DNA from: a bacterium
GTDB taxonomy: Bacteria > Actinomycetota > Acidimicrobiia > Acidimicrobiales > Bin134
DNA length: 64,000 nt
Assembly (NCBI GenBank): GCA_028819295.1
Contig: JAPPMA010000077.1
Coordinates: 1-64,000 of the forward strand
Direction of reading: 5' to 3'
This document shows positions 3,247 through 55,072 of the stretch, piece by piece (position 1 is the first letter of the stretch; each line of letters starts with the position of its first letter). The notes beneath the pieces were generated by a model that did no database searches, was not told where the DNA came from, and saw nothing but the letters and a program-made list of their open reading frames with translations. A program made the position numbers and the translations under genes.

Positions 3247-3275
3247 GCCAGCGGGCGTTTCGAGGATTCCCGCCG

Positions 3276-7508: not shown

Positions 7509-7538
7509 ATGCTGATTGAGCATCGGTAGTCTCGGCTC

Positions 7539-8582: not shown

Positions 8583-8592
8583 TCTCCATAGG

Positions 8593-38485: not shown

Positions 38486-38968
38486 TTACTGAGTCTGGAA
38501 GACCTCTAGGCGACCACTGTCAATGAGTCGCCCTGTTGCATCGATCACGGCCTTGGCAGTTTTGAGGGCCTGTTGGGCATCTTCCTCGTCAACTTCGGGG
38601 GAGTCTTCGTCTGGGTACTCGGCCCGGTGGCGACGTCGACGCAGAGCATTCAGACGACCGAATACCTCCATCCCGCCTCGATCGTTGAATTGGGCTCGCA
38701 CGGCATCAATGACCGCGATATGACCCCCTCGAGTGGTGGCGCGCAGCCCTTGTACTGCGAGCAGTGCGGCAGCGGCCTTGCGAGCTGCGTCGTATGCAAG
38801 CTGGAGCGCTCCTGTTGGGTCATCTCCGACGCCAGTTGAGGCGAAGTCAACGTGGGCGATGGCGTCGGCCAAGAGTCGGCCAGCTACGTCGGCCGAAGGT
38901 GCTACTTGTTCGAGCTCGCCGCCCGTGATCAACCGTTCGATCTCGGCACGTCCTCGTTCCCAGCTCAC
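38486..38968 (-). CDS. HEPN-domain protein, putative toxin of MNT-HEPN pair
   Basis: 160 residues, all-helical. DAARKAAAALLAVQGLRAT is the first HEPN core helix and RRRRHRAEYP carries the R-x4-H-type ribonuclease motif (about residues 111-120). It overlaps the upstream nucleotidyltransferase gene by four bases (ATGA). In characterised pairs the HEPN toxin is an RNase neutralised by adenylylation from its MNT partner. Confidence 0.82.
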   Translation of the reverse strand: MSWERGRAEIERLITGGELEQVAPSADVAGRLLADAIAHVDFASTGVGDDPTGALQLAYDAARKAAAALLAVQGLRATTRGGHIAVIDAVRAQFNDRGGMEVFGRLNALRRRRHRAEYPDEDSPEVDEEDAQQALKTAKAVIDATGRLIDSGRLEVFQTQ

Positions 38969-39603
38969 GGGGAACTACCTCTACTGGCTTCAAGTACGCG
39001 GAGTTCTATTCCAAGTTCCTGTTCATCGTCTACGAGGACGACGACCAGCGGCCGCGACTTGACCTCCTGGATGAAGCTCCCGCGCTCTGTTCTCCACTGG
39101 GAATGTGTGCGAACGGTGGCTTGAACCGGCATACCGATTCGGTCCTCGACTCGTGCGGCGGCGCCGTCTACAAGATCGCGGTCGGCGTCTCCGATTACCA
39201 GCACGTCGATGTCATTCGGAGATCTACCTTCTTCGCCTAGGTATCGAGCGGCCCAAGAACCGATCAACAGCACCGCGTCAGCATCTTCGAGGTTGGCGAA
39301 TTCCTCGGCAACCACCATGGGCGGGCCATAGGTGGCGAGAATGATCCGGCGCACTGCGTCGTAGAGAGGATGGTCGACCCTGGCGCGCACCTGCCGTATG
39401 GGACCGATCTTCTCGGTGGTGAGAATTCCGGCTCCCTCGGCTCGAAGGACCTCCCGCAACACGGTGGGCATGCTCGTGTCCGTTGAGTCAACCAGGTCGG
39501 ACAAACTGTGGCTCCTGTCGGGGTCGATGAGCACGCGCGCCAGAATCCGGCCTTGGGCATCTGAGCGAAGGATGGGCGCGAGCGGGGGCGCAGGAACTTT
39601 CAT
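38965..39603 (-). CDS. Winged-helix/MNT nucleotidyltransferase, putative antitoxin
   Basis: 212 residues. Residues about 15-75 form a winged helix (RILARVLIDPDRSHSLSDLV ... GAGILTTEKIG). Residues about 110-145 hold the minimal nucleotidyltransferase motif GSWAARYLGEE ... DIDVLVIGD. The fused DNA-binding domain suggests that it regulates its own operon. A 38-bp palindrome covers its promoter and start codon, where a -35 TTGGCA, a 17-bp spacer and a -10 TATAGT give a leader of only a few bases. Confidence 0.82.
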   Translation of the reverse strand: MKVPAPPLAPILRSDAQGRILARVLIDPDRSHSLSDLVDSTDTSMPTVLREVLRAEGAGILTTEKIGPIRQVRARVDHPLYDAVRRIILATYGPPMVVAEEFANLEDADAVLLIGSWAARYLGEEGRSPNDIDVLVIGDADRDLVDGAAARVEDRIGMPVQATVRTHSQWRTERGSFIQEVKSRPLVVVLVDDEQELGIELRVLEASRGSSP

Positions 39604-40644: not shown

Positions 40645-41055
40645 CTATCGGAGCAGGGCAATGAAGCCCGCCTGCTCGAAGTCCCGGTCGTAGGCAAGAG
40701 CCTCAGTGATGTTTCGCTCTTCCATCACGAGGAAGCTCACGCAGTCCGTGAGACTCCACCGCTGGTCGGATCTGGCGACGTAGCGTTCGACAGCGGCCCG
40801 GAACTGCCTGTCCGTCTGCGGGACGATCTCGACGTCCGGGTCTTGTTCCATTTCCCGAATCATCTGCACTGCGAACCGTCGGCGAAACTCGCCCGTAGCA
40901 GCTAGGGCGTTGAGCGTCTCTGTCAGCACCATCTGTGTCGTAACCACTGCGACGTGCCCCAGATGGTCAGCCAAAATCGCCGCCCGCTCGTGCAGCGCAT
41001 CCCGAGGCCTCCAGAGTGCGATCCAGTAACCCGCGTCTGCGAAGACAGCGGTCAC
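40645..41055 (-). CDS. vapC: PIN-domain ribonuclease toxin
   Basis: 136 residues with the PIN acidic residues: Asp in FADAGYWIAL (about residue 7), Glu in VLTETLNAL (about 45), Asp in SLTDCVSFLVM (about 103) and a later Asp in AYDRDFEQAGF. A VapC-type endoribonuclease. It overlaps the antitoxin gene by four bases. Confidence 0.9.
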   Translation of the reverse strand: MTAVFADAGYWIALWRPRDALHERAAILADHLGHVAVVTTQMVLTETLNALAATGEFRRRFAVQMIREMEQDPDVEIVPQTDRQFRAAVERYVARSDQRWSLTDCVSFLVMEERNITEALAYDRDFEQAGFIALLR

Positions 41056-41309
41056 GCATCTTCACCTTTGGGATAGCCGTAGAGATAATGCTTCTTGTTC
41101 TTGGCGAGGTCGGCAGGGAGGCCGTCCGTCGCGTCCGAGGGCATAGACTTGTGAAGTTCTTTGACCCGCCTTGCAATTGCGGCCAGTCCTCCACTCGCGG
41201 CGTTAACGTCGTTGATCGAGAGTGTGACCTCCTTGCCCTCTTCGATGTCGAGGGGCTCCGTTGGAGTTAGCACGCCGTTGGCGTAAGTGGCCTTCACGGT
41301 CGTGGTCAT
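41052..41309 (-). CDS. vapB: DUF104-type VapB antitoxin
   Basis: 85 residues from ATG 41309, preceded by AGGAGG. VKATYANGVLTPTEPLDIEE and GKEVTLSI are the SpoVT/AbrB-like DUF104 beta motif; the helical C-terminus (AAIARRVKELHKSMPSD) should bind the PIN toxin. The same frame stays open upstream through the MITE-like element, but that part belongs to the element, not to the antitoxin. Confidence 0.88.
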   Translation of the reverse strand: MTTTVKATYANGVLTPTEPLDIEEGKEVTLSINDVNAASGGLAAIARRVKELHKSMPSDATDGLPADLAKNKKHYLYGYPKGEDA

Positions 41310-41343
41310 AGCTGGTCCTCCTGGCGAGCGTCTGCTCTCTAGC

Positions 41344-41510
41344 CTAGTGGTGTGTCTTGGGTTTATTCGCGCGTGTCCTGCTAGGCATCGACGCCCCTCG
41401 CGGCGTTGCTCCTCCTTGCCGTACGCTCCGGGTATGGCTGCGTCGGTGCGCCTTGCAAGGACGCCGCTGCCGTCGCAATCCACGGCGCTAAACCCAAGAC
41501 ACACCACTAG
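41344..41510. mobile_element. MITE-like element, copy 2 (167 bp)
   Basis: Same orientation as copy 1, with perfect 22-bp terminal inverted repeats (outer end CTAGTGGTGTGT). It is flanked on both sides by CTAGC (41339-41343 and 41511-41515), which fits a 5-bp target-site duplication. There is no coding capacity. It lies upstream of vapB in the 279-bp gap before the hydrolase gene; nothing else is evident in that gap. Confidence 0.85.
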
Positions 41511-42275: not shown

Positions 42276-42346
42276 GGCCGACACCCTAAACCCCATGTGG
42301 AATGGTCAGCCCGATCCCATACACTGTCAGCGCTGGCCGCTCCGGC

Positions 42347-42432
42347 GGCCACACCTGCGCCGGTGCCCGAGCGGACTAAGGGAGTGGCCTGCAAAGCCAT
42401 GATTCACGGGTTCAAATCCCGTCCGGCGCTCC
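42347..42432 (+). repeat. 86-bp direct repeat, left copy (contains tRNA-Cys)
   Basis: Identical to 54987-55072: ten bases upstream of the tRNA, the tRNA itself and the following CC. Divergence starts immediately on both sides, which defines the repeat ends. Confidence 0.9.
42357..42430 (+). tRNA. tRNA-Cys (GCA), copy 1
   Basis: 74-nt cloverleaf: acceptor GCGCCGG/CCGGCGC, anticodon loop CTGCAAA (GCA), and T arm CGGGTTCAAATCCCG. The next bases are CCATG, so a CCA end is encoded here, unlike in copy 2 and in tRNA-Gly. The A of CCA is the first base of the Nmad2 start codon. Confidence 0.95.
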
Positions 42433-43062
42433 ATGCGTCTGTATGCCTATGTCGTCACCCATGACACAGGTTTCGCCCCCAATCCCTTCCACGGATATTG
42501 CACCCTCGCCACCTGCAAACCCGGGATTCGCGAGCGTGCGGAAGTAGGCGACTGGGTTCTCGGAGTCGGGTCCACGCAGAACACTCAAGCTGGCAAGCTC
42601 ATCTACGCCATGCGAGTCGAACAGTCGATGACATTTGACGACTACTGGACCGACCGACGCTTCCAGCTAAAGAAGCCAAGCCCAAACGGCGATGAAGAGT
42701 CACGATGCGGCGACAACATCTACCATCGCCACCCCGATTCCGGAGAGTGGGTCCAAGCACCTGGCTACCACAGTCTCGCCAACGGCTGCCCAAACCCGAG
42801 ACTTGTCGACATCGACACAAAGTCACCCAGAGTTCTCATTTCAGAGCACTTCGTCTACTACGGAAAGAGTGCCACCAACATCCCCAGCCACATCATGTTC
42901 TACGACGAAAAAGACCGCTTCACAGGCTTCCGCAACTACCGATGCAACTTCCCCCCAGCGCTGGAGCGCTACATCGTCGAATGGCTCCAGGACTTAACCC
43001 AATCTCCAGGCAGATACGACACCCCCACCCACTGGAACTCCACCAACAATCGTTCCTGCTAG
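42433..43062 (+). CDS. Nmad2 (nucleotide modification associated domain 2) protein
   Basis: 209 residues. MRLYAYVVTHDTGFAPNPFH, CTLATCKPGIR, GDWVLGVGS, KLIYAMRVEQSMTFDDYW, CGDNIYHR and VLISEHFVYYGKSA follow the Nmad2 family, predicted from context to act with modified DNA bases or nucleotides. Chemistry is unproven. Its ATG begins at the last base of the tRNA CCA, so there is no room for a ribosome-binding site; the message must come from the tRNA promoter or be near-leaderless after tRNA processing. Third codon positions are less GC-rich than in the core genes. Confidence 0.8.
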   Translation: MRLYAYVVTHDTGFAPNPFHGYCTLATCKPGIRERAEVGDWVLGVGSTQNTQAGKLIYAMRVEQSMTFDDYWTDRRFQLKKPSPNGDEESRCGDNIYHRHPDSGEWVQAPGYHSLANGCPNPRLVDIDTKSPRVLISEHFVYYGKSATNIPSHIMFYDEKDRFTGFRNYRCNFPPALERYIVEWLQDLTQSPGRYDTPTHWNSTNNRSC

Positions 43063-43068
43063 CTCCTC

Positions 43069-43284
43069 TCACCCCAGCTTCACCGAATCAGCAGACACCG
43101 GTTGCCGACAGGATCGCGCGCACTCCTCGCACCAGTCGGACCACCCGCCACGCTCGGACAGCTCAGCGGCTGGCTGTAGGCGACCGCAGCGGTCGCAGCG
43201 GAATCGGATTAGCCTGCGCCACGCCGTGTGGATCACCACTGCGGCGACGAAACACAGCACCGGCAAGATGTAGAGCCAGACCAT
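43069..43284 (-). CDS. Small membrane protein with zinc-ribbon-like Cys pairs
   Basis: 71 residues from ATG 43284: one membrane helix (YILPVLCFVAAVVIHTAW), then a cytoplasmic CDRCG ... CEECARSC, which looks like a zinc ribbon. It is tail to tail with Nmad2, 6 bases apart. Family unknown; the Cys pattern is the main support for it being real. Confidence 0.5.
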   Translation of the reverse strand: MVWLYILPVLCFVAAVVIHTAWRRLIRFRCDRCGRLQPAAELSERGGWSDWCEECARSCRQPVSADSVKLG

Positions 43285-43497
43285 GCCGCACCGTAACACC
43301 ACCGGCTGGCACCGACGCGGCAGCATCACCAGCCCGACTGTCCTCCTTCCAATCTGTCTCAATGGTGTTCCCATTCGCTATGCGATGCGGCCTGTTGCCG
43401 AATGGCGAGGTTGGTCAACCCAGCCGGGCTAAGGAGGGTCCAGCGCCCGGTTACTCTCCCCACGCCCAAATGGTGTTCCCCACCGGGAGAGGAGCAA

Positions 43498-43962
43498 ATG
43501 ATGTCCGACAGAAACTCGAATTCAGGTGCAGCGCCACTCGTCGTGGACCTGCTTCGAGACCGATGCAACTTGCAATATGACTCCCTGAAGTCATGGAAAC
43601 AGAACTCCAGGCTCATCCTCGGCGCGGTCGTATCGCTTGGCGCTCTTTTGGCTGTGGCGGATTTGAGTTCAGGCGAGGAGCTAGTTGGCGATCTCCTGTC
43701 TCTCGGGTTGCTATTGGTCGTCACCGTGGCAATCGCAGAACTCTTCGCCAACCGATGGAACTCTGGCCCCGACGAGGGCACCCTCGCGAGGCTCGTCACA
43801 GACGATCCCAATGCCAGGGATGCGGAGATCGAACTGGCGACGAATTTGGCCAAGCAAATTCAAGAGAACGAGAGGGTCCTGGAGCGGGTTAAGGTCACCG
43901 TGGCCATTGAGTTGGCCGTGGCTACGGGTGGCGTCCTCTGGCTGGTGATCCAATTTCTCTAA
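43498..43962 (+). CDS. Three-helix membrane protein, unknown
   Basis: 154 residues from ATG 43498, which has GGAGAGGAGC just upstream; the frame is open further left but without a better start. The N-terminal 40 residues are soluble, two adjacent membrane helices follow (LILGAVVSLGALLAVA and LLSLGLLLVVTVAIAELFA), then an acidic helical segment (DAEIELATNLAKQIQENERV) and a last helix at the C-terminus. The shape recalls membrane effectors of conflict systems, but no family is recognised. The 213 bases upstream and 175 bases downstream are non-coding. The latter holds a C-rich tract (44066-44084, C8TC10). Confidence 0.6.
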   Translation: MMSDRNSNSGAAPLVVDLLRDRCNLQYDSLKSWKQNSRLILGAVVSLGALLAVADLSSGEELVGDLLSLGLLLVVTVAIAELFANRWNSGPDEGTLARLVTDDPNARDAEIELATNLAKQIQENERVLERVKVTVAIELAVATGGVLWLVIQFL

Positions 43963-44137
43963 CTGGCAGAACAGTCTGAGCGCCGGGTGTCGTGCGGCAA
44001 CTTGGCGTGCGGGATGCCTGGCAAGCATTTCACCTGTCGGCTGCGTTTCCATGCTTAGGTGGAGTCCCCCCCCTCCCCCCCCCCTCTTGGGTGAGTCCTC
44101 GAAAATCGGTTGGGTAGGCTCAGGCCAGAGCAGGTGG

Positions 44138-45868
44138 CTAGGACCCCGCGCTGGGTGTTTCGCTATCGTGGGTGCCGGCGATTGCTTCCCGTGTGATTGC
44201 GTTGCAAAGAACAGCGAATCTGGGGTCTGCGCTCTTTTTGCTGTCCAGGCCGCTCAGATGGTCCTCGGGGATTGTGTGACCGGCTGCGAGGATCGCAAAT
44301 GCCTTGCCTACTGCGATGATGTCCGCAAGGCTGTCTTCTCCCTCTCCGCGAACCCTCTCTTCGCCCTTCTCGTATAGGGCGATGCCTCCTTCGAGGTCGC
44401 CTCTCACGGCTTTGATGAGTCCTGCGGTGGTCAGTGCGAGATCGCATTCCGACAGATCGGGAAGCACTCGTTCAGCCTCGTCGGGATCGCCGCCCATTGC
44501 GAGGGCGAATGCGACATTGTTGCGGAGCACGTCGTCGCCGATGCCGCGCTTGATCCCGGCCAGCCCGATGCGTGCTGCCTTTTGGTAGTTCCCCTTGTGC
44601 ATGGACATCAGATAGGTGGCAGCGATGTGGGCGTCCGTGGAGAACGGTTCTTCTTCGACCCTTTCGACAGCGGCTCTCAGACTGCGGTCAAACTCGAAAC
44701 GCAGAAATGCGACTTCTTGCTCGACGGCCAGCAGCGCTGAACGATCGAAGCGCTCGATAAGTTCGCTGTAGGCGGATTCCAGCGCTGGAAGGTCAGCCGT
44801 TGTCTGCGCAGTATTAGCGAGCAAGCGGGCGATCATCTCGCTTCGGTAGTCACACCGTTTGAGCGCCTCCAACGCGCGACCGAACACCTCCTTGCGGGGC
44901 TTTGCCGGAGGATTCAATAGGTCGATATAGAGCCGGAGTTCCTCCTTCTGGGCGGGTGCAGCCTCTTGAATATCCCTTGACGTGTCCGCTCGTCGCAGGC
45001 GCTTCAACGCACCTTTGGCATCTCCTGAGATGTGCAGGGCCGCTGCTGCGGCAAGCACCAGTTGGATGTCGCCGGGGTGATGGGCAGCGAGGCGGTCGAT
45101 AGCCGATACCGCTTCGCTGGTTTCCCCTTGGGAGAGCAGGAAGGCAGCCAAATTGAGACCCGCTGTGCGGTCTGCCGGTGCGAGAGCTGCGGCTGCGGAC
45201 GTAGCCCGGATCGCCTTCCGTGCGGAGCCTGCCATCGCGTATGCGTAGCCGAGGTTGCAAAGGGTTGAGGGGGAGTCGGGAACGCTCCTCAGAGCTGAGC
45301 GCAATTCGCGAATCGCGTCATGGCACCGGCCCACTTGCGCCAGCACCGCCCCTTTGAGCGCCGCCCCTGTCTCACTCTCATTGCCTTCAAGAAGCTCTAG
45401 CGCTCTGTCCAAGCGCCCTTGGTGCGCTGCGAACCTAGCCGCGAGCACGGCTGCAGAGCGTTTGGCTCCGCTCCCTACAGAGGGTGTTTCCATCACCCTT
45501 AGGAGTCCTTGATCTGCAAGGGCAACCTCTCCTAAACCCGCGGCAACCTGCGACGCAGCTATAAGGGCTGGGGCGTCGATGGTCTCATTCTCCAACACCT
45601 GCTTTGCCGCATCCCACGCGCTAACACGGTTTCCGAAGCTCACCTCACTGACAGCGAGCCTGGCCAGTGCAGTAGGCGAACTTGGAAACTTGTCTGCAAG
45701 GGCACGTGCCTGCAAGAGGTCTCCATCGATTTGGTCGGAATAAGGGTTGGGCAGGAGTGCTGTTTCTGGGGACTGCAATTGCTGGTCCTCGCTTAGCGGC
45801 ACGACGATGCGGGCAGCCGCGGGGTTTGGCGGGGCAAGGATTCTGTCTTCCCGGATGGTCATAGTCAT
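44138..45868 (-). CDS. Tetratricopeptide-repeat protein of the XRE-kinase-TPR operon
   Basis: 576 residues. After a polar N-terminus of about 50 residues the protein is helical repeats, several with clear TPR spacing (GYAYAMAGSARKAIRATSAA, AAFLLSQGETSEAVSAIDRL, AAALHISGDAKGALKRLR, NVAFALAMGGDPDEAERVLP). It has no signal peptide or membrane segment. Its ATG overlaps the kinase stop (ATGA), so the two are coupled. TPR arrays hold partners; this one may be a kinase substrate or scaffold. It is the last gene of the operon. Confidence 0.85.
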   Translation of the reverse strand: MTMTIREDRILAPPNPAAARIVVPLSEDQQLQSPETALLPNPYSDQIDGDLLQARALADKFPSSPTALARLAVSEVSFGNRVSAWDAAKQVLENETIDAPALIAASQVAAGLGEVALADQGLLRVMETPSVGSGAKRSAAVLAARFAAHQGRLDRALELLEGNESETGAALKGAVLAQVGRCHDAIRELRSALRSVPDSPSTLCNLGYAYAMAGSARKAIRATSAAAALAPADRTAGLNLAAFLLSQGETSEAVSAIDRLAAHHPGDIQLVLAAAAALHISGDAKGALKRLRRADTSRDIQEAAPAQKEELRLYIDLLNPPAKPRKEVFGRALEALKRCDYRSEMIARLLANTAQTTADLPALESAYSELIERFDRSALLAVEQEVAFLRFEFDRSLRAAVERVEEEPFSTDAHIAATYLMSMHKGNYQKAARIGLAGIKRGIGDDVLRNNVAFALAMGGDPDEAERVLPDLSECDLALTTAGLIKAVRGDLEGGIALYEKGEERVRGEGEDSLADIIAVGKAFAILAAGHTIPEDHLSGLDSKKSADPRFAVLCNAITREAIAGTHDSETPSAGS

Positions 45869-46998
45869 ATGTTCACTCTCCTCCTTTCATACGCTGTTCG
45901 GTCAAGGGTCTTGATGATGATGTCCACGCGGCGAAACACCCATTGCAGGCCCCACATTGGGCTGTTCTGCTCTGCTCGACGGCGGCGCTCTCGGAATGCG
46001 GGAACTGGGCTGCACATCTGGCGTACCAGGCCCACAACGTGTTGTCGTATTTGCGGAGGCACCTCATCCTCCAGCTCTCCCAAGGCCGACTCGTATCTTT
46101 CCCTCATGTAACGTGCCGCAGCGCGGAAACTGGCTTCTCGATCTTCTTTTTCCATAGCAGCTGTGGCTTCGAGGTGGAATTGCCAATCCGGAAGCGTCAC
46201 CGCTGTGATTCCCAGACCGGTGGCGATTTCGTACAGGACCGAGCCGAGAAGGTAGATGTCTGACCGCCTTAGAGCTGCTAGGTCGTTTCCGCTGGCCAGG
46301 TTCCAGAGTAACTCCGGCGGCGCGTAACTGTGGTCGCCTCGTCCTGACGTATACCCAGACGGAGAGAACCGCGGGCTTCGGTCCAGGTTTCGGCTCCGCC
46401 CCAAATCGGAGATTTTCGCTGTGGCGACAGGCTCTTTCGCGTTGGTCAATGTCACGTCAGATGCCGGCAGAACACCAGAGCCAGACATCAGGGTCAAGAT
46501 GGTTTTTTTCGCGTCGAACAGAAGCACGTTTGATGATTTGATGTCCCTGTGCATGATCCGCCTCCCGTGCATTTGATGGATACCTGACACGACATCGCGG
46601 AAGAGCAGCATCTTGGTGCGCCAGCTGAGTTCATGCCGATATGGCAGAAGTTCGTCAAGGGACCCGTTACCCAACTCCAGCACATGAAAGCGCACACGCA
46701 TCCTCGTAGGCGAGCCTCCAATGTCAATGAACAGATCCGATTGTCCCGATTCGATCAGCGAGACGACATTGCGGGCCTTTTCTGACTTCTCCAGGAGCAT
46801 CCCCTCTTCGTCGAACTCCATCACTGCGCCAGGGTCGCTGGTAGCGCTCGGAGCGAGCATCTTCACTGCGGCCAGCGTTCCGGTCTGCTGATCGCTGGCT
46901 TTAAACACATGGGAGAAGTAGCCGTCGCCGATATGGCCTGCGAGCCGGTAGCGCCCGCTGAGGGTCTGGCCGATGCAGGCATCAGCGAAGCTGGCCAT
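45865..46998 (-). CDS. Hanks-type Ser/Thr protein kinase
   Basis: 377 residues from ATG 46998 (MASFADACIGQTLSGRYRLA). The glycine loop is HIGDGYFSHVF (about 22-32), the ATP lysine is Lys46 in LAAVKML, the catalytic loop MHRDIKSSNVLL is near residue 150, the DFG position reads DLG (KISDLGRSR, near 198), and APPELLW is the activation-segment end. All catalytic residues are present. The last 90 residues are a non-kinase helical tail without a membrane helix. It overlaps the XRE gene by 17 bases and the TPR gene by 4, so the three proteins are made together. Confidence 0.92.
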   Translation of the reverse strand: MASFADACIGQTLSGRYRLAGHIGDGYFSHVFKASDQQTGTLAAVKMLAPSATSDPGAVMEFDEEGMLLEKSEKARNVVSLIESGQSDLFIDIGGSPTRMRVRFHVLELGNGSLDELLPYRHELSWRTKMLLFRDVVSGIHQMHGRRIMHRDIKSSNVLLFDAKKTILTLMSGSGVLPASDVTLTNAKEPVATAKISDLGRSRNLDRSPRFSPSGYTSGRGDHSYAPPELLWNLASGNDLAALRRSDIYLLGSVLYEIATGLGITAVTLPDWQFHLEATAAMEKEDREASFRAAARYMRERYESALGELEDEVPPQIRQHVVGLVRQMCSPVPAFRERRRRAEQNSPMWGLQWVFRRVDIIIKTLDRTAYERRRVNI

Positions 46999-47275
46999 AT
47001 CTGGCCCGGATTTCAACGAGAAGCTCGGGGTGTTGCAGGAGGATTTCTGCAATGTCCGAAGGGATGTCGCCAGCGGCCAACGCAACGTGTTCGCCGTCAA
47101 GCGCATAATGGCTTACCGCACGACCGCGCAGTTCGGTAGATGGTTGTCGTTCACCTGTCTCCACTCGGGAAAGGTACGACGCGTCCACGCCGAGGTCTTT
47201 GGCAGCGCTCCTCAAGGACTGGCCCTTGGCCTGCCTGGCATTGCGAAGCATGTCGGCTATTCGTCTGCCTGCCAT
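46982..47275 (-). CDS. XRE-family helix-turn-helix regulator
   Basis: 97 residues from ATG 47275. MLRNARQAKGQSLRSAAKDL followed by DASYLSRVETGERQPS is a canonical XRE DNA-binding domain; the C-terminal 40 residues (GDIPSDIAEILLQHPELLVE) are probably for dimerisation. It is the first gene of the operon. A perfect 22-bp palindrome sits 18 bases upstream on the promoter, the likely autoregulatory site. The same frame is open back into the IS3 remains, which is accidental. Confidence 0.9.
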   Translation of the reverse strand: MAGRRIADMLRNARQAKGQSLRSAAKDLGVDASYLSRVETGERQPSTELRGRAVSHYALDGEHVALAAGDIPSDIAEILLQHPELLVEIRARYGQLR

Positions 47276-47314
47276 GCCTCCACCATACAGTGGTGTTGCC
47301 AATGTTGGCAACAC
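47276..47314 (-). promoter_or_regulatory. Promoter and palindromic operator of the XRE-kinase-TPR operon
   Basis: A perfect palindrome covers 47293-47314 (arms GTGTTGCCAA and TTGGCAACAC around two bases). On the minus strand TTGCCA (47311-47306), an 18-bp spacer and TATGGT (47287-47282) make a promoter whose -35 lies inside the palindrome. Transcription would begin almost at the ATG, so the first message may be leaderless. Confidence 0.7.
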
Positions 47315-47493
47315 TATTTTGGGCTTGCGGGCAGTAACCGTTGTTTGGCACCCATATGAAGTGTTGCACAGGGGTGCGTATTTGTTGAGCCTTCGCGGAA
47401 ACGTGGGGTGGGGTGGGGGTCCGTTGGCCGGGGTCGGGGCTCTGCTGGGATCGGTGATGTCATTGTCGCCTGTCGAGGAGGGCCCCGATGGGT

Positions 47494-48745
47494 TCAGATG
47501 TTGTGCGGGTGCGGTTGTGTTTGCGCCTGATAAGGGTGCTCGGGGTTGTGTCTGAGCTTCCCCCCCTTTTCGTGGGGAGGTTGGTTGTGAGGATTGGCGG
47601 TGTGGGTCGTCTCGTGTTCTACGGGTGGGACCATTCCGATTGCGGAGTGGAGGCGGTGGTGGTTGTACCAGCCGCAGGCCCGCAGCGTGATTTCTTGGCG
47701 GGCTTGGGCTTTGGTGGCCCGGGCCCGGCGGTCGATGGGCTCGTGCTGGAGTGCGGGGGAAGAACGACTCGGCCGGGGCGTTGTCCGGGGCGTTGCCGGT
47801 CCTTCCGGAGGGTCGGGCGATGCCGAGCCGCCGGCAGGCGGCGGCGAAGGCCCCTGCGGTGTATTGCGGCCCCTTGTCGGAGTGGAAGGCCACGCCGTCG
47901 ATGTTCCCGCCCCGTGTGGCCGCCGCGGTGTCGGTCGCGGCCTTGGCCGGCTCCGCGGTCGGATAGCGGTTCGAGGCGGCGAACCCGGCCATGCGCCGCG
48001 AGCGCAGGTCCAGCACCGTCGCCGAAAACACCGGGCCCTCGGCGGCCTTGACCTCTTCGAAGTCGCCGCACTGCTTCTGGTTGATCCCCGAAGCGCTGAA
48101 GTCCCGCCGCAATAGGCCTGTCGGGGCCGCACCGCCGGGGTTCCGGCCGGTCAGGCCCTTCTTCTTTTTGGGGCGGGCGCACAGCCCCTGGCGGGCCATC
48201 GGCGCCTCCACCGTCTTCTTCGACACCGACACGCCGTCTCGGCGCAGCTGGGCCCGCACCCCGGGCGACCCGCAGGCCCCCTGGGAGCGGTCGAACGCCT
48301 TTTTGACCTGGGCATCGGCCGCCCGACGGCGGACCTGCATCGGCGCCGGCGGCCGGTCGAGGTGCTTGCAGAACGTCGAGGGAGCAACATCCAGCGCCCG
48401 GCAAGACACCGCGTGAGGCACTCCGCGGTCGGCCCTCTGGGATGCGATGAACCCTGCGGCCACCGCGTCGCCCCGCTCACCCAACCGACCACGGATCGCT
48501 TGAGGACATCGCGCTCCATCCCCCGGCTCGGCCACCCTCATGCGGAGCCGGGCCAGCTCGGCCCGCTCGCCTGCCGACAGCCCGCCGGCCCGCCCGGCCC
48601 GGTCCCGGCGCACCCAGTTCCCCAGCGTGCCCTCACACACACCGAGCCCCCGGGCCACATGGGCCACCGCCCGGCCGGCCTCCTCGACGATCCGAACAGC
48701 CCCATCTCGGAACTCCCGGCCGAAATTTCTTCGCAGTCCGGACAT
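47494..48745 (-). pseudogene. Degenerate IS3-family transposase (orfA/orfB)
   Basis: From ATG 48745 the frame encodes an OrfA-like HTH (FRDGAVRIVEEAGRAVAHVA ... CEGTLGNWVRRDRA), then OrfB parts: ALDVAPSTFCKH, the DDE pieces CGDFEEVKA, FHSDKGPQYT and APAESFF. The true C-terminus (ACGWYNHHRLHSAIGMVPP) lies in another frame ending at 47494, and MERDVLKRSV is in a third. At least two frameshifts beyond the usual programmed one therefore disable it. Imperfect inverted repeats around CTTTTCGTGG (near 47567-47580 and 48770-48780) may mark ends. Confidence 0.8.
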
Positions 48746-48798
48746 AACTCCCCCTCATAGAGCATGCCTCCACGAAAAGAGGGGAACCTCACCGGCCC

Positions 48799-48909
48799 TC
48801 AAACGGGCGAACAGAGGGAACCAACAACCTCCTCCAAGTCCTCAGACGAACAGCCCACGGCTTCACCAACCCCCACAACTTCCAAGCCCGCGGCCTGCTG
48901 ATAACCTGA
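48799..48909 (+). pseudogene. C-terminal remnant of an ISL3-family transposase
   Basis: The plus strand encodes SNGRTEGTNNLLQVLRRTAH then GFTNPHNFQARGLLIT and a stop at 48907-48909. SNGxTE...N...GFxNxxNxxxRxLL is the end of ISL3-type DDE transposases. Everything upstream is gone, apparently replaced by the IS3 element. Confidence 0.65.
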
Positions 48910-48940
48910 CCCCCACACCGGAGACAGCAACCCGAACCCC

Positions 48941-49174
48941 ACAAAAACGCGCAGGGCCACCAAACTCTCCACGATTAGGGGGGAAGCTCACCGGGGGTGT
49001 CAATGGAGATTTCAGCACAAAAACGCGCAGGGCCACCAAACTCTCCACGATTAGGGGGGGGAAGCTCACCGGGGGTGTCAATGGAGATTTCAGCACAAAA
49101 ACGCGCAGGGCCACCAAACTCTCCACGATTAGGGGGGGGGGAAGCTCACCGGGGGTGTCAATGGAGATTTCAGC
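48941..49174 (+). repeat. Three tandem leader repeats with G tracts of 6, 8 and 10, ending in the DUF262 start
   Basis: Units 48941-49016 (76 bp), 49017-49094 (78 bp) and 49095-49174 (80 bp) are identical except for a G run of 6, 8 and 10. Each unit ends GGGGGTGTCAATGGAG, that is a ribosome-binding site, an ATG and five codons. Only the third ATG (49161) opens the full gene. The G run lies about 30-20 bases before the ATG. This and the ISL3 remnant account for the 415-bp gap 48746-49160. Confidence 0.9.
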
Positions 49175-51152
49175 CATTTTGAGCCAGATCGAGCAAGGGC
49201 AGTTTGCGCTGCCGGAGTTCCAGCGGGGTTATGTGTGGAGCCGGGAGCAGGTGAGGGGCCTTTTCTCATCGCTATACCGCCGCTACCCGGTGGGCGGCTT
49301 CTTGGTGTGGACGACCCAGCCCAACCGGGATGCAGTGCGGGGCGGGGCGGCGCAGCCGGGTGCGCCGGTCACGCTGTTGTTGGACGGCCAGCAGCGGGCC
49401 ACTTCGTTGTACGGGGTGATACGGGGCCGCCCACCGAAATTCTTCCAAGGCGACGAGAGGGCGTTCAAAAACCTGTATTTCGACGTGGACAAAGAGGTAT
49501 TCGAGTTCTACGGGCCGGTCAAGATGCGCGACAACCCGCATTGGATCTCGGTGACCGACCTGTTCCGCCACGGCCCTCGCGGCATGGTCGCCCAACTCAG
49601 AAAGTGCACCGAGGATACCGAGGCGCTGCTCGACTACCAGCAGCGGCTGACCGACCTCTACACCATTGGCAGCATCGATCTGCACATCGCCCACATCCCC
49701 GGCCATGACCGGCCAATCGACGAGGTGGTCGACATCTTCAACCGTGTCAACTCCGGTGGCACCAAACTGTCGTCCGCAGACTTGGCGCTCGCCAAACTCT
49801 GTGGTGAGGCGCCCCAGTCCCGACAGGAGCTGCGCCGGCTTCTCGCGGGCTGGGAGCAGAGCGGCTATTGCTTCAAGCTGGAATGGCTGTTGCGCGGAGT
49901 CACCGCTGTGGCGACCGGGCAGGCCTCTTTCGGCGCGCTGCGGGATGTCTCGGTCTCTGACTTCTCGACTGCGCTGAAGAAGACGGCGCAGAGCATCGAT
50001 TTCGCATTGAATCTGCTGGCGACCGGCCTGGGCATCGACCACGACCGGGTTCTCGCCGGGAAATACGCGTTCACCTCCCTGGCGCGGCTCGTGTCCAACA
50101 GCGGCGGGACTGTCAATGACCTCGCCGACCAGCACAAGATCCTGTACTGGTATGTCCACAGCTTCTTGTGGGGCCGCTACAGCGGGTCGGCGGAGACGAA
50201 CCTGCGACGCGATCTCGTCGCCTTAGAAGACGGGGGCGTTGAAGGGCTGATCGCCGAGTTGGAGAGGTGGCGGGGAGGCCTTGAGTTGAAGGCCGATGAT
50301 TTCGACTGGTGGAGCGTCGGCGCCCGCTTCTACCCGCTGCTGTACATAATGACCCGCCTCAGCCGGGCTAGGGACTTGGTTAACGGCCTCCCCCTGTCGC
50401 TCAGCATGCACGGCCATCTGAACCAGTTGCACAAGCACCACATTTTCCCCCGGAATCGCCTCTACCGAGAAGAAATGAGCCAGGCGCAGGTCAACGCCCT
50501 GGCCAATTTCTGCTTCCTTACAGCCGGGTCGAACTGGGCGATCAGCGACGACGACCCGGCCTCCTACCTGCACGAGATAGAGCAGCGGAATCCTGGCGTG
50601 CTCGCATCCCAATGGGTACCCCTTGACGAAGCCCTCTGGCAGATTGACCGCTACCCGGAGTTCCTCGCTGCCCGCCGATCCCTGCTCGCTGAAGCCGCGA
50701 ACAGCATCCTCGCCGCCCTCCGGGAAGGTCGACACCCCGCGCCACCTCCGCAAACCGAACTCCCAACACAAGCTCACGCCGCTGCACAAGTCGGCGCGGC
50801 CCGTCCGGCGTGGGACGAAGAGGACGACGGGGACATTCTTGCCTTGCGCCAGCTGGCCGCCGATCTGAGAATCGCCGCGCCGGAAACGCACTGCGAGATT
50901 GCCGACGCCGACACCGGCGAGCCTTTGGCCATGGCTGACATTGCCTGGCCTCAAGGCATCCAACCGGGCCTGACTGAGCCTGTCGCGCTTTTGTTTGACC
51001 CGGATGCTGAGACCGAAGAACGGCTCGGCGAGCTCGGCTACCGCTTCTTCACCACCCCCCGGAGACTGATCTGGCATCTGGAACAACTCCTCGGAATAGA
51101 TATTGACGGAGACCAGATCATCGGCGAGGCAGAACCTTTGCAATCCAGCTGA
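49161..51152 (+). CDS. DUF262-HNH protein (GmrSD/type IV restriction-like)
   Basis: 663 residues. The N-terminal DUF262 domain has FALPEFQRGYVWSREQV and the nucleotide-binding DGQQR motif (LLLDGQQRATSLYG, about residue 77), with FNRVNSGGTKLS. The C-terminal half has a DUF1524-like HNH site, LHKHHIFPRNRLY ... NALANFCFLTAGSNWAIS (about residues 423-460), followed by about 200 residues of unassigned tail. Relatives (GmrSD, BrxU, SspE) cut modified or phosphorothioated DNA during phage defence. The ATG is at the end of the third leader repeat. Confidence 0.88.
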   Translation: MEISAILSQIEQGQFALPEFQRGYVWSREQVRGLFSSLYRRYPVGGFLVWTTQPNRDAVRGGAAQPGAPVTLLLDGQQRATSLYGVIRGRPPKFFQGDERAFKNLYFDVDKEVFEFYGPVKMRDNPHWISVTDLFRHGPRGMVAQLRKCTEDTEALLDYQQRLTDLYTIGSIDLHIAHIPGHDRPIDEVVDIFNRVNSGGTKLSSADLALAKLCGEAPQSRQELRRLLAGWEQSGYCFKLEWLLRGVTAVATGQASFGALRDVSVSDFSTALKKTAQSIDFALNLLATGLGIDHDRVLAGKYAFTSLARLVSNSGGTVNDLADQHKILYWYVHSFLWGRYSGSAETNLRRDLVALEDGGVEGLIAELERWRGGLELKADDFDWWSVGARFYPLLYIMTRLSRARDLVNGLPLSLSMHGHLNQLHKHHIFPRNRLYREEMSQAQVNALANFCFLTAGSNWAISDDDPASYLHEIEQRNPGVLASQWVPLDEALWQIDRYPEFLAARRSLLAEAANSILAALREGRHPAPPPQTELPTQAHAAAQVGAARPAWDEEDDGDILALRQLAADLRIAAPETHCEIADADTGEPLAMADIAWPQGIQPGLTEPVALLFDPDAETEERLGELGYRFFTTPRRLIWHLEQLLGIDIDGDQIIGEAEPLQSS

Positions 51153-51368
51153 GGGCCTACGGATCAAGCGCGGCTCGAGACCAGCAGCCGCACTCATCCC
51201 TGTAACGGTCTAGCCGGTAGGTGACCACCTCTGGGACGGGCACCCGGGAAGGTTTCAGGTCTGAAGCCAGGTCTAATGCGGGCGGGCTGTGGGTCAGGTG
51301 ACAATCAAAGCCACTATCGCTTTTTGCCGTCCATGACGCCTGTTCATCGCTTGTCTAGGCGGAACGAG

Positions 51369-52145
51369 CTACTTCAAGCTGTAGTACGAAGGATCGACGC
51401 AGCGGGCTTTCTCCCAGATGCACAGGTCCAGAGCTCCGGGCTGCACGTTGCCGTGTTCCGCGTACTGTAGGAACGCTTTTTCGTATCTGGTGTAGTGGCG
51501 TTGGGGGCTCCACTCGGGTCTGAATATGCCAGCCCTTGTCAGCGCTCGCACCGGCCAGATTCCGACAAGGGCCACTTTGGCGCTGCCGGTCAGGTTGCGG
51601 ACGATCCAGGCCGCTTTCTGAGGGCCGACCCCGTGCAGCCCCTTCAAGTAGTCCTTCAGTTCGAGTGGGTCTTCGGGCGGGGGTTCTGAGCGGAGCCGGG
51701 CCAACGACTCGGCGATGTGCTCCGACCGCTGCTTCGGGAATCTGTAGCTCCCCAGACCGCCGGGCAGAGGCTCCGCCAGCCGCTCCTCGATTTTCCCTGC
51801 TGTCGCTTCAGGGTTCTCGGCGAGAAGGTCGAGTACAACTTGGCGGGCTGCTCGCGCTGACTCTGCCCGTATCCCGGAACCCCCGAGCAGGCAGAACACG
51901 ACCACCGACTCGATATCAGCGTCGGATGCCGTTGCTGCGAGACGTTTCTCGTAGCACTCAATGGCGGTTCGATTGACCCAAAACGCTGGAGTGCCGAAAA
52001 CCTCGTGGCTGCCCCACGCGACATCCCACGACTGATCCCTCACTGTGAAGCTGATCCGGTCGTGGCTGCTACGCCCGCAGTGGGGATCCCGCTCTGATTC
52101 CAACGATGCTTCCCGTGCCACGGTCGAGAGCCTACATCGCTTCAA
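51369..52145 (-). CDS. OGG-fold HhH DNA glycosylase-like protein lacking the catalytic Asp
   Basis: 258 residues. AWGSHEVFGTPAFWVNR, LGSYRFPKQRSEHI and the helix-hairpin-helix LKGLHGVGPQKAAWIVRN (Lys near residue 176) fit the stand-alone 8-oxoguanine glycosylase OGG-fold family. Where the family has a strand with Asp (pattern DIHIxRAG), this protein reads LVGIWPVRALTRAG, so the catalytic Asp is Gly. Lyase activity may be lost while binding stays. The 216-bp gap toward DUF262 shows nothing recognisable. Confidence 0.75.
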   Translation of the reverse strand: MKRCRLSTVAREASLESERDPHCGRSSHDRISFTVRDQSWDVAWGSHEVFGTPAFWVNRTAIECYEKRLAATASDADIESVVVFCLLGGSGIRAESARAARQVVLDLLAENPEATAGKIEERLAEPLPGGLGSYRFPKQRSEHIAESLARLRSEPPPEDPLELKDYLKGLHGVGPQKAAWIVRNLTGSAKVALVGIWPVRALTRAGIFRPEWSPQRHYTRYEKAFLQYAEHGNVQPGALDLCIWEKARCVDPSYYSLK

Positions 52146-52250
52146 ATGGCGCCGATGATCCAGTCAGGTCCCGAATCTTGGCGGGGTCACCGGAAACCAG
52201 CTCGCGCGAACCCTGGAGGAGCTTCACCCCGCCAACAAGGCGCGTTCAAT

Positions 52251-52736
52251 TCACGTAGGCACAACTTGGATGGGCGGCAGGGTTATGCGGCCATCCTTAG
52301 AAGTCGGTCGCCGGTTTTGGCGTCGACGTAGGTGAAGCTTTGTGGAGGTCGGAAGCCTCTTGGATTCGCCCCGGAGGTCTTGGAGGGGCACGATCCTGTC
52401 TAGGGGCTGCTGATGCGCCAGAGTCAGCGCGGTGCCGGCGCCCAGCCCCTCGAAGTAGCGCTTGAACTCTTTGTGGGACAACTCAGATCTTGAGCCGTAC
52501 TCGTGCCACAAGGCTGTGAGGTTGGCCGATCTGACGTCTGTGATGATGCATGTGCCAAGTAACGCCCGCACCGGTGTCGACGCATACAACAGCGCACGCG
52601 TCGGGACTTCGATCTTTGGTGTCGTGCGGCGCAGCTCGACAGTCTTTGTCCCGGCGAGGATGGCCTCAGCGAATCTCGGCTTGAGCGACAGGACGATCAT
52701 CCGGCTCTGATCGAGCGCTGCAATCTCTTCAGCCAT
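52251..52736 (-). pseudogene. ASCH-domain protein with C-terminal frameshift
   Basis: 161 residues as it stands. IVLSLKPRFAEAILAGTKTV, ELRRTTP, RALLYASTPVRALLGTCII and the YFEGLGAGTALTL region are ASCH (RNA-binding or hydrolase PUA-like fold). After PLQDLRG the frame is wrong: the plus-one frame reads FRPPQSFTYVDA, the usual ASCH ending, from about base 52370 onward. A one-base indel in the CCGGGGCGA run explains it. It may be a real mutation or a base-calling error. Confidence 0.7.
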
Positions 52737-52782
52737 TTCGTTTCATCTCCATCTTCGTAAGGCGCCTGGGCCAACTACTTCA

Positions 52783-53013
52783 TTACCTCGTCGTCAGAAT
52801 CACCAGCTTGCGGGTTTGGTGATCCTGACGACGGGGTTGATTGGGATTGCTGGGGCGCGCGTCAAGCTGCGAGGTGAAGTAGCACACACGGTGGATGTCG
52901 TCTTTGGGAAAGAGGGTCACACCCAGTTTTCCAAGGTCAAGCCATCGGAACTGGGTGTCCTTCAAGGCGCGGTAGTAGAGATTGAAGCCGTCGATGTAGA
53001 GGTTTGTCTTCAA
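52783..53013 (-). pseudogene. Truncated NYN-domain nuclease
   Basis: 76 residues: MKTNLYIDGFNLYYRALKDT, RWLDLGKLG, FPKDDIHRVCYFTSQLDARP and PNQPRRQDHQTR match the first third of NYN (PIN-like) RNases with the catalytic Asp in YIDGFNLYY, but the usual 200-plus residues stop here. The last nine residues (LVILTTR and stop) come from a long inverted repeat at 52789-52833, which seems to have replaced the rest of the gene. Confidence 0.7.
52789..52833. repeat. 17-bp inverted repeat at the broken end of the NYN gene
   Basis: 52789-52805 and 52817-52833 are complementary at 16 of 17 positions (arms CGTCGTCAGxATCACCA) around an 11-base loop. It can form a strong hairpin. It lacks a T tract; it is either an insertion scar or a terminator-like structure. 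Confidence 0.75.
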
Positions 53014-53031
53014 TCGCCGCTCCCAAAAAAT

Positions 53032-53130
53032 GACAGAGACCGCCGTCAGACGGCGGTCTCGACCCTACCGGCGAAGCGATAGGGGTGGTACAAGAAACCT
53101 ACCACGAGGCAGGTGGGCCATCAACGGTCA
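53032..53130. repeat. 99-bp repeat A with two hairpins
   Basis: About 90% identical to 54825-54923, same orientation. It contains the stem GAGACCGCCGT/ACGGCGGTCTC and a second stem CCCTA/TAGGG. Read on the minus strand, the first stem is followed by a TTTTTT run (53030-53025), so this copy can act as a terminator after the gene ending at 53128. Its other end holds that gene's stop codon. Confidence 0.8.
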
Positions 53131-53817
53131 TTGGGCCAGGCGTTGTGCCGTTCGTTGGGCTGCTTGGCGGAGATCCTCTGGGCCGTTGCCCTGGGCGAGC
53201 CACTCAGCGGGGGATAGGCCGTCGAGGTCTTCGTGCTGTGCTGTTGAGGCCCAAGATGCGATAAGGAACGGGTCGGCTCCTTCGCCAAGGGAGTCTCGGA
53301 ACGCGCCGATGATGTGGCGGACTTCGGGTCGGATCTCCTTTTTTTCAATATCGAGTTGCCAAGTCGGATACCAAGTGGTGCCTCGTCCGGGGAGGCCCAG
53401 CAAAGACCCAGAGGCTTGTCGTTTCGACAGAGCCTGGCGGGTGACGCCGAGAAGCTCCGCAGCTTCAGACGTGTCAATGCGGTCGCCGACTAACCGCGAC
53501 CACCGGGCGCTGGCGATGGCATCTTCGGCTGCCCTTGTGCCGAGCTCCCGGGCTTCGTCAGCGCCCATCTCGTCGATTTCACGTCGAGCGGGGGACAGAC
53601 GCTCCAGAAACGCGTCGACGAGCAGGGCAACGCGCTCGTTGACAGAGCCTTCGTTGGATTGCAACTGGTCGCCTCGATAGACAGCCCATCCCTCGTCTTG
53701 GGGGCGGGAGTTTATGCAGTTCACCAAGATGTCGATGACGAAGGGGCCGGGGTCAGACGAGTCCAGATCCTGCATATCTGAAGTAGGGGTGATCTTGGTG
53801 TCGGGCGACTCGGCCAT
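53128..53817 (-). CDS. HTH protein with MbcA/ParS-like C-terminal domain
   Basis: 229 residues. The middle (ELLGVTRQALSKRQASGSLL, about residues 120-140) is a helix-turn-helix. The last 75 (EVRHIIGAFRDSLGEG ... DLDGLSPAEWLAQG) resemble the toxin-binding DUF2384 domain of Xre/MbcA/ParS antitoxins. The normal partner, a RES-domain toxin, is not next to it; the upstream neighbour is DUF6226. It may be an orphan antitoxin or an anti-toxin decoy. Confidence 0.65.
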   Translation of the reverse strand: MAESPDTKITPTSDMQDLDSSDPGPFVIDILVNCINSRPQDEGWAVYRGDQLQSNEGSVNERVALLVDAFLERLSPARREIDEMGADEARELGTRAAEDAIASARWSRLVGDRIDTSEAAELLGVTRQALSKRQASGSLLGLPGRGTTWYPTWQLDIEKKEIRPEVRHIIGAFRDSLGEGADPFLIASWASTAQHEDLDGLSPAEWLAQGNGPEDLRQAAQRTAQRLAQ

Positions 53818-53883
53818 ACAGCAACCCTGGCCGTCAACCCGTCAACTCTCCATCCAAAGGTGGGTGGGCACTGCCTCGCCGTA

Positions 53884-54756
53884 CTACCTCCGGCCCTCCG
53901 ACGCATCCGGCCGGCCGCCGTTGAACCAGGGTGATCCGTGGATCTGGTGCCATCTTCTTGGGCTGGCCAAGGCCCTTTCCACCTTCTTGCGCTCCTTCTT
54001 CCGCTGCTTGCGGCGGCTGCCGCTGTTGCCCAACTTGAAGGCGGTGGCTCTGCGAATGACGTTGAGCCATCTGGGCTTGCCCTGGTTGTCGATTGCCTGG
54101 AGGGTGTAGTAGCCGTCGGTGGCCATCTCTGAGGTGGCGGCAGTCGGGACCCCCACGAACCGGCCTGGCAGCAGCCTCGTGAGGTTCACCCTCCGCCTTT
54201 CAAAGCCCGACCAGCTCATATGGTCGTCCGAATAGACGGTGATCTCCCGTCTGCCTCGCCAGAGCTTGCGGTATTCGCCAGTCACCACACACAGCACGTA
54301 TTCGTCGAGCACGTCGAGGGCGTCTTGCGACCCGGAGTCGCACGCGTCGCAGGCGCAGTCTGGAATCACTTCCAAGACGGCGGCGGGGTCGCCAGCGCCA
54401 ATTGCGACGCCTGGCCATTCAACTTCTTCGAAGCCGGTCATTGCCACAACGAGTGGGGTTGCGCCCGGCGCCCGCGGCACCGCCCGGATCGTGCGGGCCG
54501 CTGGGATTCTTGGCGGCTCCTGCCAGACCACTTCCGCTTCTAGCTCTATCTCGGCCAGGCCCGCGTCGGTCAGCGCCTTGAACCATGCTTCGGCCCGGAC
54601 CGCCAAGATTTCCCACCTTTGCGGGTTCGTAACCCGTGAGTACTCCTCTTCCAGAGGCATTCGATCAGGGTGAGGGTCCGGCCACCCGGGCAGCCCGCGT
54701 CCCGCCTCGACGAACGCAGCATCCACCGCGGCCACCAGCTCTTCTACGGAACCCAC
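53884..54756 (-). CDS. DUF6226 family protein
   Basis: 290 residues. PDPHPDRMPLEEEYSRVTNP, RAEAWFKALTDAGLAE, GAGDPAAVLEVIPDCACDAC and DSGSQDALDVLDEYVLCVV are the DUF6226 pattern known from actinobacteria; no function is established. The CACDACD Cys cluster may bind metal. An added basic tail (SRRKQRKKERKKVERA) could contact nucleic acid. It runs in the same direction as the ParS-like gene 66 bases downstream. Confidence 0.75.
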   Translation of the reverse strand: MGSVEELVAAVDAAFVEAGRGLPGWPDPHPDRMPLEEEYSRVTNPQRWEILAVRAEAWFKALTDAGLAEIELEAEVVWQEPPRIPAARTIRAVPRAPGATPLVVAMTGFEEVEWPGVAIGAGDPAAVLEVIPDCACDACDSGSQDALDVLDEYVLCVVTGEYRKLWRGRREITVYSDDHMSWSGFERRRVNLTRLLPGRFVGVPTAATSEMATDGYYTLQAIDNQGKPRWLNVIRRATAFKLGNSGSRRKQRKKERKKVERALASPRRWHQIHGSPWFNGGRPDASEGRR

Positions 54757-54824
54757 CCCACCATGATGACCCAGCCCACATCAACGCACGCGGCGATTTC
54801 ATGCGTGTGCCGCCTCCAAGAAGA

Positions 54825-54923
54825 GACAGAGACCGCCGTTAGACGGCGGTCTCGACCCTACCGGCGAAGCGATAGGGGTGGTACAAGGAATTTACAACGA
54901 GGCAGGTAGACCATCAATGGTCA
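54825..54923. repeat. 99-bp repeat B with two hairpins
   Basis: Second copy of the 53032-53130 sequence, upstream of the DUF6226 gene and 73 bases before tRNA-Cys copy 2. The main stem is intact; the T run is interrupted here. Copies A and B bracket the DUF6226/ParS-like gene pair as a 1.8-kb cassette. The rest of the 240-bp gap 54757-54996 shows no other signal. Confidence 0.8.
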
Positions 54924-54986
54924 CAGATGCTGAATGCCTCAATTTTCGGTGTGGAAGCTTGAATTCGGTCGGATTGGGCATGCGGA

Positions 54987-55072
54987 GGCCACACCTGCGC
55001 CGGTGCCCGAGCGGACTAAGGGAGTGGCCTGCAAAGCCATGATTCACGGGTTCAAATCCCGTCCGGCGCTCC
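54987..55072 (+). repeat. 86-bp direct repeat, right copy (contains tRNA-Cys)
   Basis: Identical to 42347-42432. It marks the right end of the island; the next gene is chromosomal copCD. Confidence 0.9.
54997..55070 (+). tRNA. tRNA-Cys (GCA), copy 2
   Basis: Identical in all 74 bases to 42357-42430. It is followed by CCC, not CCA, so CCA must be added after transcription. The open frame that runs through it into copCD is not used as coding sequence. Confidence 0.95.

Follow-up and report, generated by a model that had tools for sequence, protein, structure and literature searches.

Three overlapping genes, for an XRE-family regulator, a kinase and a TPR protein in that order, occupy the minus strand of the 44138-47314 region in the window (the whole 64,000-nucleotide stretch of DNA analyzed herein). 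Do they form a signaling or defense unit and, if so, does that unit correspond to a system that has already been named? The genes can be defined with some precision. The first (47275-46982) encodes P0001, a 97-aa XRE-family helix-turn-helix regulator (Pfam HTH_31, E=6e-12). It overlaps by 17 nt the gene (46998-45865) for P0002, a 377-aa Hanks-type Ser/Thr protein kinase (Pkinase, E=5e-25), which in turn has an ATGA-type overlap of 4 nt with the gene (45868-44138) for P0003, a 576-aa TPR solenoid protein recognized by several TPR models. P0002 and P0003 are remote members of the PDC-M71A and PDC-M71B protein families, respectively. The kinase has a complete set of catalytic motifs, comprising the glycine-rich loop GDGYFS, AVK, HRDIKSSN, APPE and a late arginine (R336), and it carries DLG where DFG is usual. 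The original prediction had described just such a set of overlapping genes, and the open reading frames, Pfam matches and motifs bear it out.

Structure models of the kinase and the TPR protein are of middling confidence (mean pLDDT of 67 and 66, respectively) and have low TM-scores, and so they were used for fold class only, claims finer than this not being allowed. The PDB matches listed for the kinase model are all protein kinases. The predicted structure of P0003 consists of helices alone, with no extra enzymatic domain, and the trio proteins showed no recognizable effector domain such as a nuclease or a pore. When the window is compared with G403, another species of the genus, dN/dS values are 0.07 for the XRE gene, 0.21 for the kinase gene and 0.22 for the TPR gene. 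Purifying selection between species acts on all three frames, which are more than chance open reading frames.

A conserved palindrome upstream of the regulator gene

A perfect inverted repeat at 47293..47314, GTGTTGCCAA-CA-TTGGCAACAC in the minus-strand reading, is a putative palindromic operator for these genes. It overlaps a predicted minus-strand promoter (TTGCCA-18-TATGGT; 47282..47311), which is the sole promoter-like site in 43900-47600, where 0.5 would be expected by chance. The operator pattern itself occurs once in the window versus an expected 0.03 copies. Moreover, a perfect inverted repeat lies upstream of the XRE gene in every copy of the trio (window, G403, G405 and G968). The G403 version is 30 nt long, that of G405 is TGTTGCCA-ACTG-TGGCAACA, and that of G968, read off the sequence, is TGTTGCCCA-AC-TGGGCAACA. 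Both half-sites are altered together in G968, and thus symmetry is what is conserved. This symmetry persists although the kinases of the window and G968 systems share 36% identity. With an HTH gene and a conserved palindrome both present, the natural reading is that the XRE protein probably binds the palindrome and represses its own operon. The self-regulation that had been suggested for this unit is therefore probable on the conservation of the operator sequence.

Upstream of the trio, within 46982-48745, is a degraded IS3-type transposase whose frame remains open through the operator and into the XRE gene. This remnant and the XRE sequence together make up a mechanical open reading frame of 587 aa.

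Relationship to PDC-M71 and to named systems

The original prediction had found no named system to which the trio could be matched. This view needs partial revision, in that the kinase and TPR proteins fall distantly within the PADLOC candidate PDC-M71, whereas the XRE-led branch itself lies outside the canonical clade. Among all PADLOC models, PDC-M71A is the top match for the kinase (120.8 bits, E=2e-35), and the TPR protein matches PDC-M71B in PADLOC-DB (62.7 bits, E=6e-18), with both matches judged on bits and E-values and not on PADLOC's own acceptance thresholds. The kinase match is a remote one because the best canonical member reaches E=6e-161. As a specificity control, PDC-M71A at 1e-20 and PDC-M71B at 1e-10 recovered no further gene in 395 other genomes of the phylum.

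To place the trio more broadly, 84,980 species genomes were scanned for the DNA pattern of a GDxxYAPPE...D-Y-G motif. The pattern was a guess based on P0002 and on general knowledge, and its matches were tested afterwards. The scan yielded 16 loci with identical spacing, spanning five phyla (Actinomycetota, Pseudomonadota, Bacteroidota, Acidobacteriota and Verrucomicrobiota). All 12 aligned kinases match PDC-M71A and all 10 TPR proteins match PDC-M71B, the window's own being counted in each. The TPR gene lies directly 3' of the kinase gene on the same strand in 13 of 13 testable canonical loci; excluded were L023, which is a kinase fragment, and L018 and L029, which are at contig ends where the TPR gene is untestable. 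Models built without the window's sequences detect its kinase at 123.9 bits and its TPR protein at 75.1 bits, and residues 387-523 of the TPR protein match a model built in this analysis at 50.7 bits.

The likeness to PDC-M71 thus includes a TPR gene that overlaps the end of the kinase gene, the match of both proteins to the family models, the GDxxYAPPE motif with its C-lobe spacing, the tail at the C-terminus of the kinase, and region 387-523 of the TPR protein. However, the window branch differs in being preceded by an XRE gene and its operator, and an overlapping HTH-type gene is found upstream in just one canonical locus (L014, from Diaminobutyricibacter). Its catalytic loop reads HRD rather than the canonical HQD, its N-lobe glycine loop and AVK are more typical, there is a ~28-residue insert ahead of DLG, and the N-terminus of the TPR protein is different. 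The window kinase is 22-29% identical to canonical PDC-M71 kinases, and in a phylogenetic tree it forms a clade with the G403 kinase that is set apart from the canonical one by a branch of 3.5 changes per column. Because of this long separate branch, we file the window pair as a sister variant of PDC-M71 rather than among its inner members. Given the same branch length and low identity, function may not carry over from canonical PDC-M71. The trio as a whole, by these comparisons, is a divergent, repressor-led sister branch of that family.

Several named systems also have kinases. PD-T4-6 shares the Hanks-type kinase domain (84.5 bits), but it is a single-gene Ser/Thr kinase without a TPR partner or XRE repressor. 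The staphylococcal abortive-infection kinase Stk2, which acts through growth arrest, likewise uses a kinase as its working part. However, the trio kinase scores only 34.7 bits with Stk2, versus 120.8 with PDC-M71A, and Stk2 has no TPR/XRE operon. For BREX/Pgl, the likeness is a kinase-domain similarity to PglW (31.5 bits), but the trio kinase has 377 aa versus about 1,400, and neither a PglZ phosphatase nor a PglX/BrxX methyltransferase was found among the island genes scanned. The scores and the lack of partner genes led us to reject membership in BREX/Pgl, Stk2, MADS and PD-T4-6. In particular, the trio is not a fragment of a BREX/Pgl or Stk2 locus, as the original prediction had allowed, because the kinase models of those systems score far below PDC-M71A and the unit shared among genomes comprises three genes only.

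The PADLOC web-server paper makes no mention of PDC models (PMC9252829), and the term 'phage defence candidate' is used for PDC-type entries in a later paper (PMC11514479). Our literature search, which covered few subscription papers and preprints, returned no PDC-M71 and no kinase-TPR pair as a tested defense system. The family of the trio is already known as a computational candidate and, as far as we found, not as a tested system.

Transfer of the unit and its possible functions

The TPR protein was found in 3 of 22 genomes of the genus, namely that of the window and those of G403 and G405, two other species that carry the trio DNA. A minus-strand segment at 44153..47323 is common to the window and G403 at 91% in unrelated surroundings, and the DNA shared with G405 corresponds to 44177-47327. 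No flanking homology to G403 or G405 was present in the stretches compared. Because homology ends at the operon edges, the transferable cassette consists of the operator and three genes, and so the unit is as compact and mobile as had been proposed. The G403 kinase and TPR proteins are 90-91% identical to those of the window, and the XRE gene is within the shared DNA. In G403, the trio sits at a different place (L010), with a C5-methyltransferase gene close by and an AbiEii-type gene adjoining. Near 5.7 kb and 8.3 kb of L010, the same stretch, one frame of which reads EGWGKAQEPGAVTPQPYQNVGIDRSKSRRNEALATDVRLALAQQLVGQQGGL, flanks an AbiEii/IS1595 segment, and its second copy ends beside the operator of the trio.

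The kinase gene of G405 has two separate internal deletions (L011 2150-2800), one of which takes the N-lobe and the other the C-lobe plus the TPR start codon. The XRE and TPR frames are still open. Either this copy of the trio is decaying or the assembly is at fault. A more distant example comes from G968, which belongs to another family of the same order and has XRE, kinase and TPR genes in identical order and overlapping (L068; kinase 1392-2462, TPR 2459-4300). Its proteins are 52% (XRE), 36% (kinase) and 32% (TPR) identical to those of the window. The three genes recur together in G968 as well as in G403 and so are not peculiar to the window, which is the outcome sought by the co-occurrence check proposed with the original prediction. 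The trio travels as one unit, and it predates the genus. Directly upstream of the G968 trio (L068 103-806) are two open reading frames that resemble, by eye only, an AbrB-type antitoxin and a PIN toxin.

Canonical PDC-M71 pairs are rare, patchy and often near defense genes. The canonical family was present in 1 of the 217 genomes that made up one phylum sample and in 2 of 218 in one family, counting in each case the genome that served as the center. When the TPR protein alone was searched against the phylum, it matched only the window itself, and the window proteins had no relatives in viral contigs (single-protein scans) or plasmids (tblastn). Weak plasmid matches to the window proteins proved to be generic kinases. 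In Nitrobacteraceae, a 6.9-kb block carries genes for the TPR protein, the kinase, a Tle1-like phospholipase, a CBASS cyclase and a 4TM effector (as named in L034), the last three of which make up a CBASS-like operon. It is common to three genomes at 76-89% without shared flanks and occupies three unrelated places (L034 7890-14744; L037 5340-12216; L041 8365-15249). The kinase/TPR pair moves together with CBASS genes in these three genomes, and the DNA shared by Mucilaginibacter and Pedobacter is the kinase/TPR pair only.

The defense neighbors of canonical loci are a CBASS cyclase and 4TM effector in L034, a 4TM effector in L037 and L041, multiubiquitin/ThiF genes in L030, and a type I restriction subunit in L038. 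Those of the XRE-led branch are the C5-methyltransferase and AbiEii genes of G403 and a GmrSD_N gene in the window. The conjugation-type proteins TraG and TrwC are also among the neighbors, and no clear defense neighbor was seen at several canonical loci (e.g., L035, L036 and L033). Matches were few and mostly generic in control regions taken from these genomes. The original prediction had called for a test of enrichment near defense genes. Such genes often accompany the wider family, but a comparison of 14 loci with 9 control loci is too small to support statistics, and one ancestral cassette accounts for three of the positive loci. Furthermore, PADLOC family counts take in generic methyltransferases and ATPases, and gene calls outside the window are heuristic and miss some genes. 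The L030 genes (6357-8729) encode a multiubiquitin protein, a small open reading frame and a ThiF-domain protein, constituting a bacterial ubiquitin-like operon that adjoins the Diaminobutyricibacter HTH-kinase-TPR locus.

Genomic context is what points to a role for the trio in defense. We lean toward the view that it is an independent kinase-scaffold module, spread by horizontal transfer and kept in check by autorepression, that most likely serves to defend the cell against phages or other mobile DNA. The XRE protein would bind the palindrome and hold operon expression low, and the TPR protein would dock on the kinase as a sensor, an inhibitor or a substrate adaptor. An invader that disturbs this complex or lowers the repressor might then activate the kinase, which would phosphorylate host or phage proteins and halt growth or replication ahead of phage release. 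Because no effector domain was recognized, phosphorylation itself would be the effector step. It is tempting to extend this speculation to a new type of three-gene immune circuit, although we hold this version to be rather doubtful. The repressor would set the level, the TPR solenoid would sense the invader, and the Hanks kinase would be the sole effector via phosphorylation alone, with the HQD kinase/TPR pairs of other phyla representing the same circuit without the repressor.

The main rival to the defense reading, itself unlikely, is a HipBA-like kinase toxin-antitoxin system. The kinase would be toxic alone and the TPR (or XRE) protein would neutralize it, so that the unit would be mainly selfish or island-stabilizing and any effect on phages secondary. 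HipBA also pairs an HTH autorepressor (HipB) with a Ser/Thr kinase, and a small HTH autorepressor with a palindromic operator, coupled genes and mobility are all as expected for such a system. The same can be said of the toxin-antitoxin genes near the trio in the window and G403, and of the G405 deletions, which hit the kinase and leave the XRE and TPR frames open. However, the decay in G405 is not clean because the TPR start codon is lost too. The trio kinase also lacks the HipA fold, as there was no Pfam match to the HipA model but rather one to Pkinase, and its fold matches are Hanks kinases. In addition, the XRE gene is absent upstream of most canonical pairs and thus is not an obligate antitoxin, and a TPR protein of 500-576 aa would be unusually large as an antitoxin. 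A HipA-family kinase system (DS-6) identified by DefensePredictor requires its kinase for phage protection (PMC13092281). The HipA fold of DS-6 and HipBA is unmatched in the trio, which has a TPR partner instead. DS-6 is a functional parallel and not a relative.

Hanks kinases with TPR partners serve ordinary signaling. Perhaps, then, the trio is a transferable cassette for stress or development signaling, in which the pair phosphorylates a cellular regulator on an internal cue, and the several canonical loci that have no defense neighbors would be consistent with this. We consider it quite improbable, given the rare and patchy presence of the pair, its transfer as a cassette across phyla, and the recurrence of CBASS, restriction and ubiquitin-like genes beside it.

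Few bacterial immune systems work through protein phosphorylation, and these are not well understood. The module described here is small and self-contained, with PDC-M71 relatives in at least five phyla, and thus can be tested whole in laboratory hosts. The XRE-led branch has, in addition, an internal point of control whose operator is defined. If protection were kinase-dependent, the substrate would show a new way of stopping phage.

The tRNA-Cys island

The prediction that the trio resides in a mobile island beside restriction-like genes agrees with the presence of two tRNA-Cys genes 12.64 kb apart, whose copies form a 90-nt direct repeat (99% identical) bounding an island at 42343..55072. 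This island also encodes the GmrSD_N protein, an Nmad2 protein (42433-43062), an Ogg-type HhH DNA glycosylase (51369-52145) and an ASCH protein (52251-52736; PADLOC candidate PDC-M11B). No integrase was recognized in it. Across the genus, this tRNA-Cys site is a hotspot for integration. G410 has a single tRNA-Cys across 16 kb, whereas G401, G408, G411 and G415 have second copies with differing cargo between them. At this hotspot (L055-L062), the second tRNA-Cys is ~3-15 kb off in several species, and the cargo often includes an ASCH gene. The location of the trio within a tRNA-bounded island might suggest that the XRE/kinase/TPR circuit governs excision or expression of the carrying element, but this is very improbable because the trio occurs without the island in other surroundings, no integrase is shared, and canonical pairs are found in many contexts.

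Just outside the island are a HEPN gene with a neighbor that reads like a nucleotidyltransferase (38486-39603) and an AF2212-like gene with a PIN-like open reading frame (40645-41507). Both are probable toxin-antitoxin pairs, of which HEPN and AF2212 alone are confirmed. Within the island, tandem 78-bp repeats (48902-49174) lie close to the beginning of the GmrSD_N frame (48540-51152), and the actual start of this frame is probably downstream of the repeats. Finally, a 115-bp sequence is present in two copies (53016-53130 and 54809-54923; 89%), each with the 25-nt palindrome GAGACCGCCGTCAGACGGCGGTCTC, and is possibly a small mobile element.
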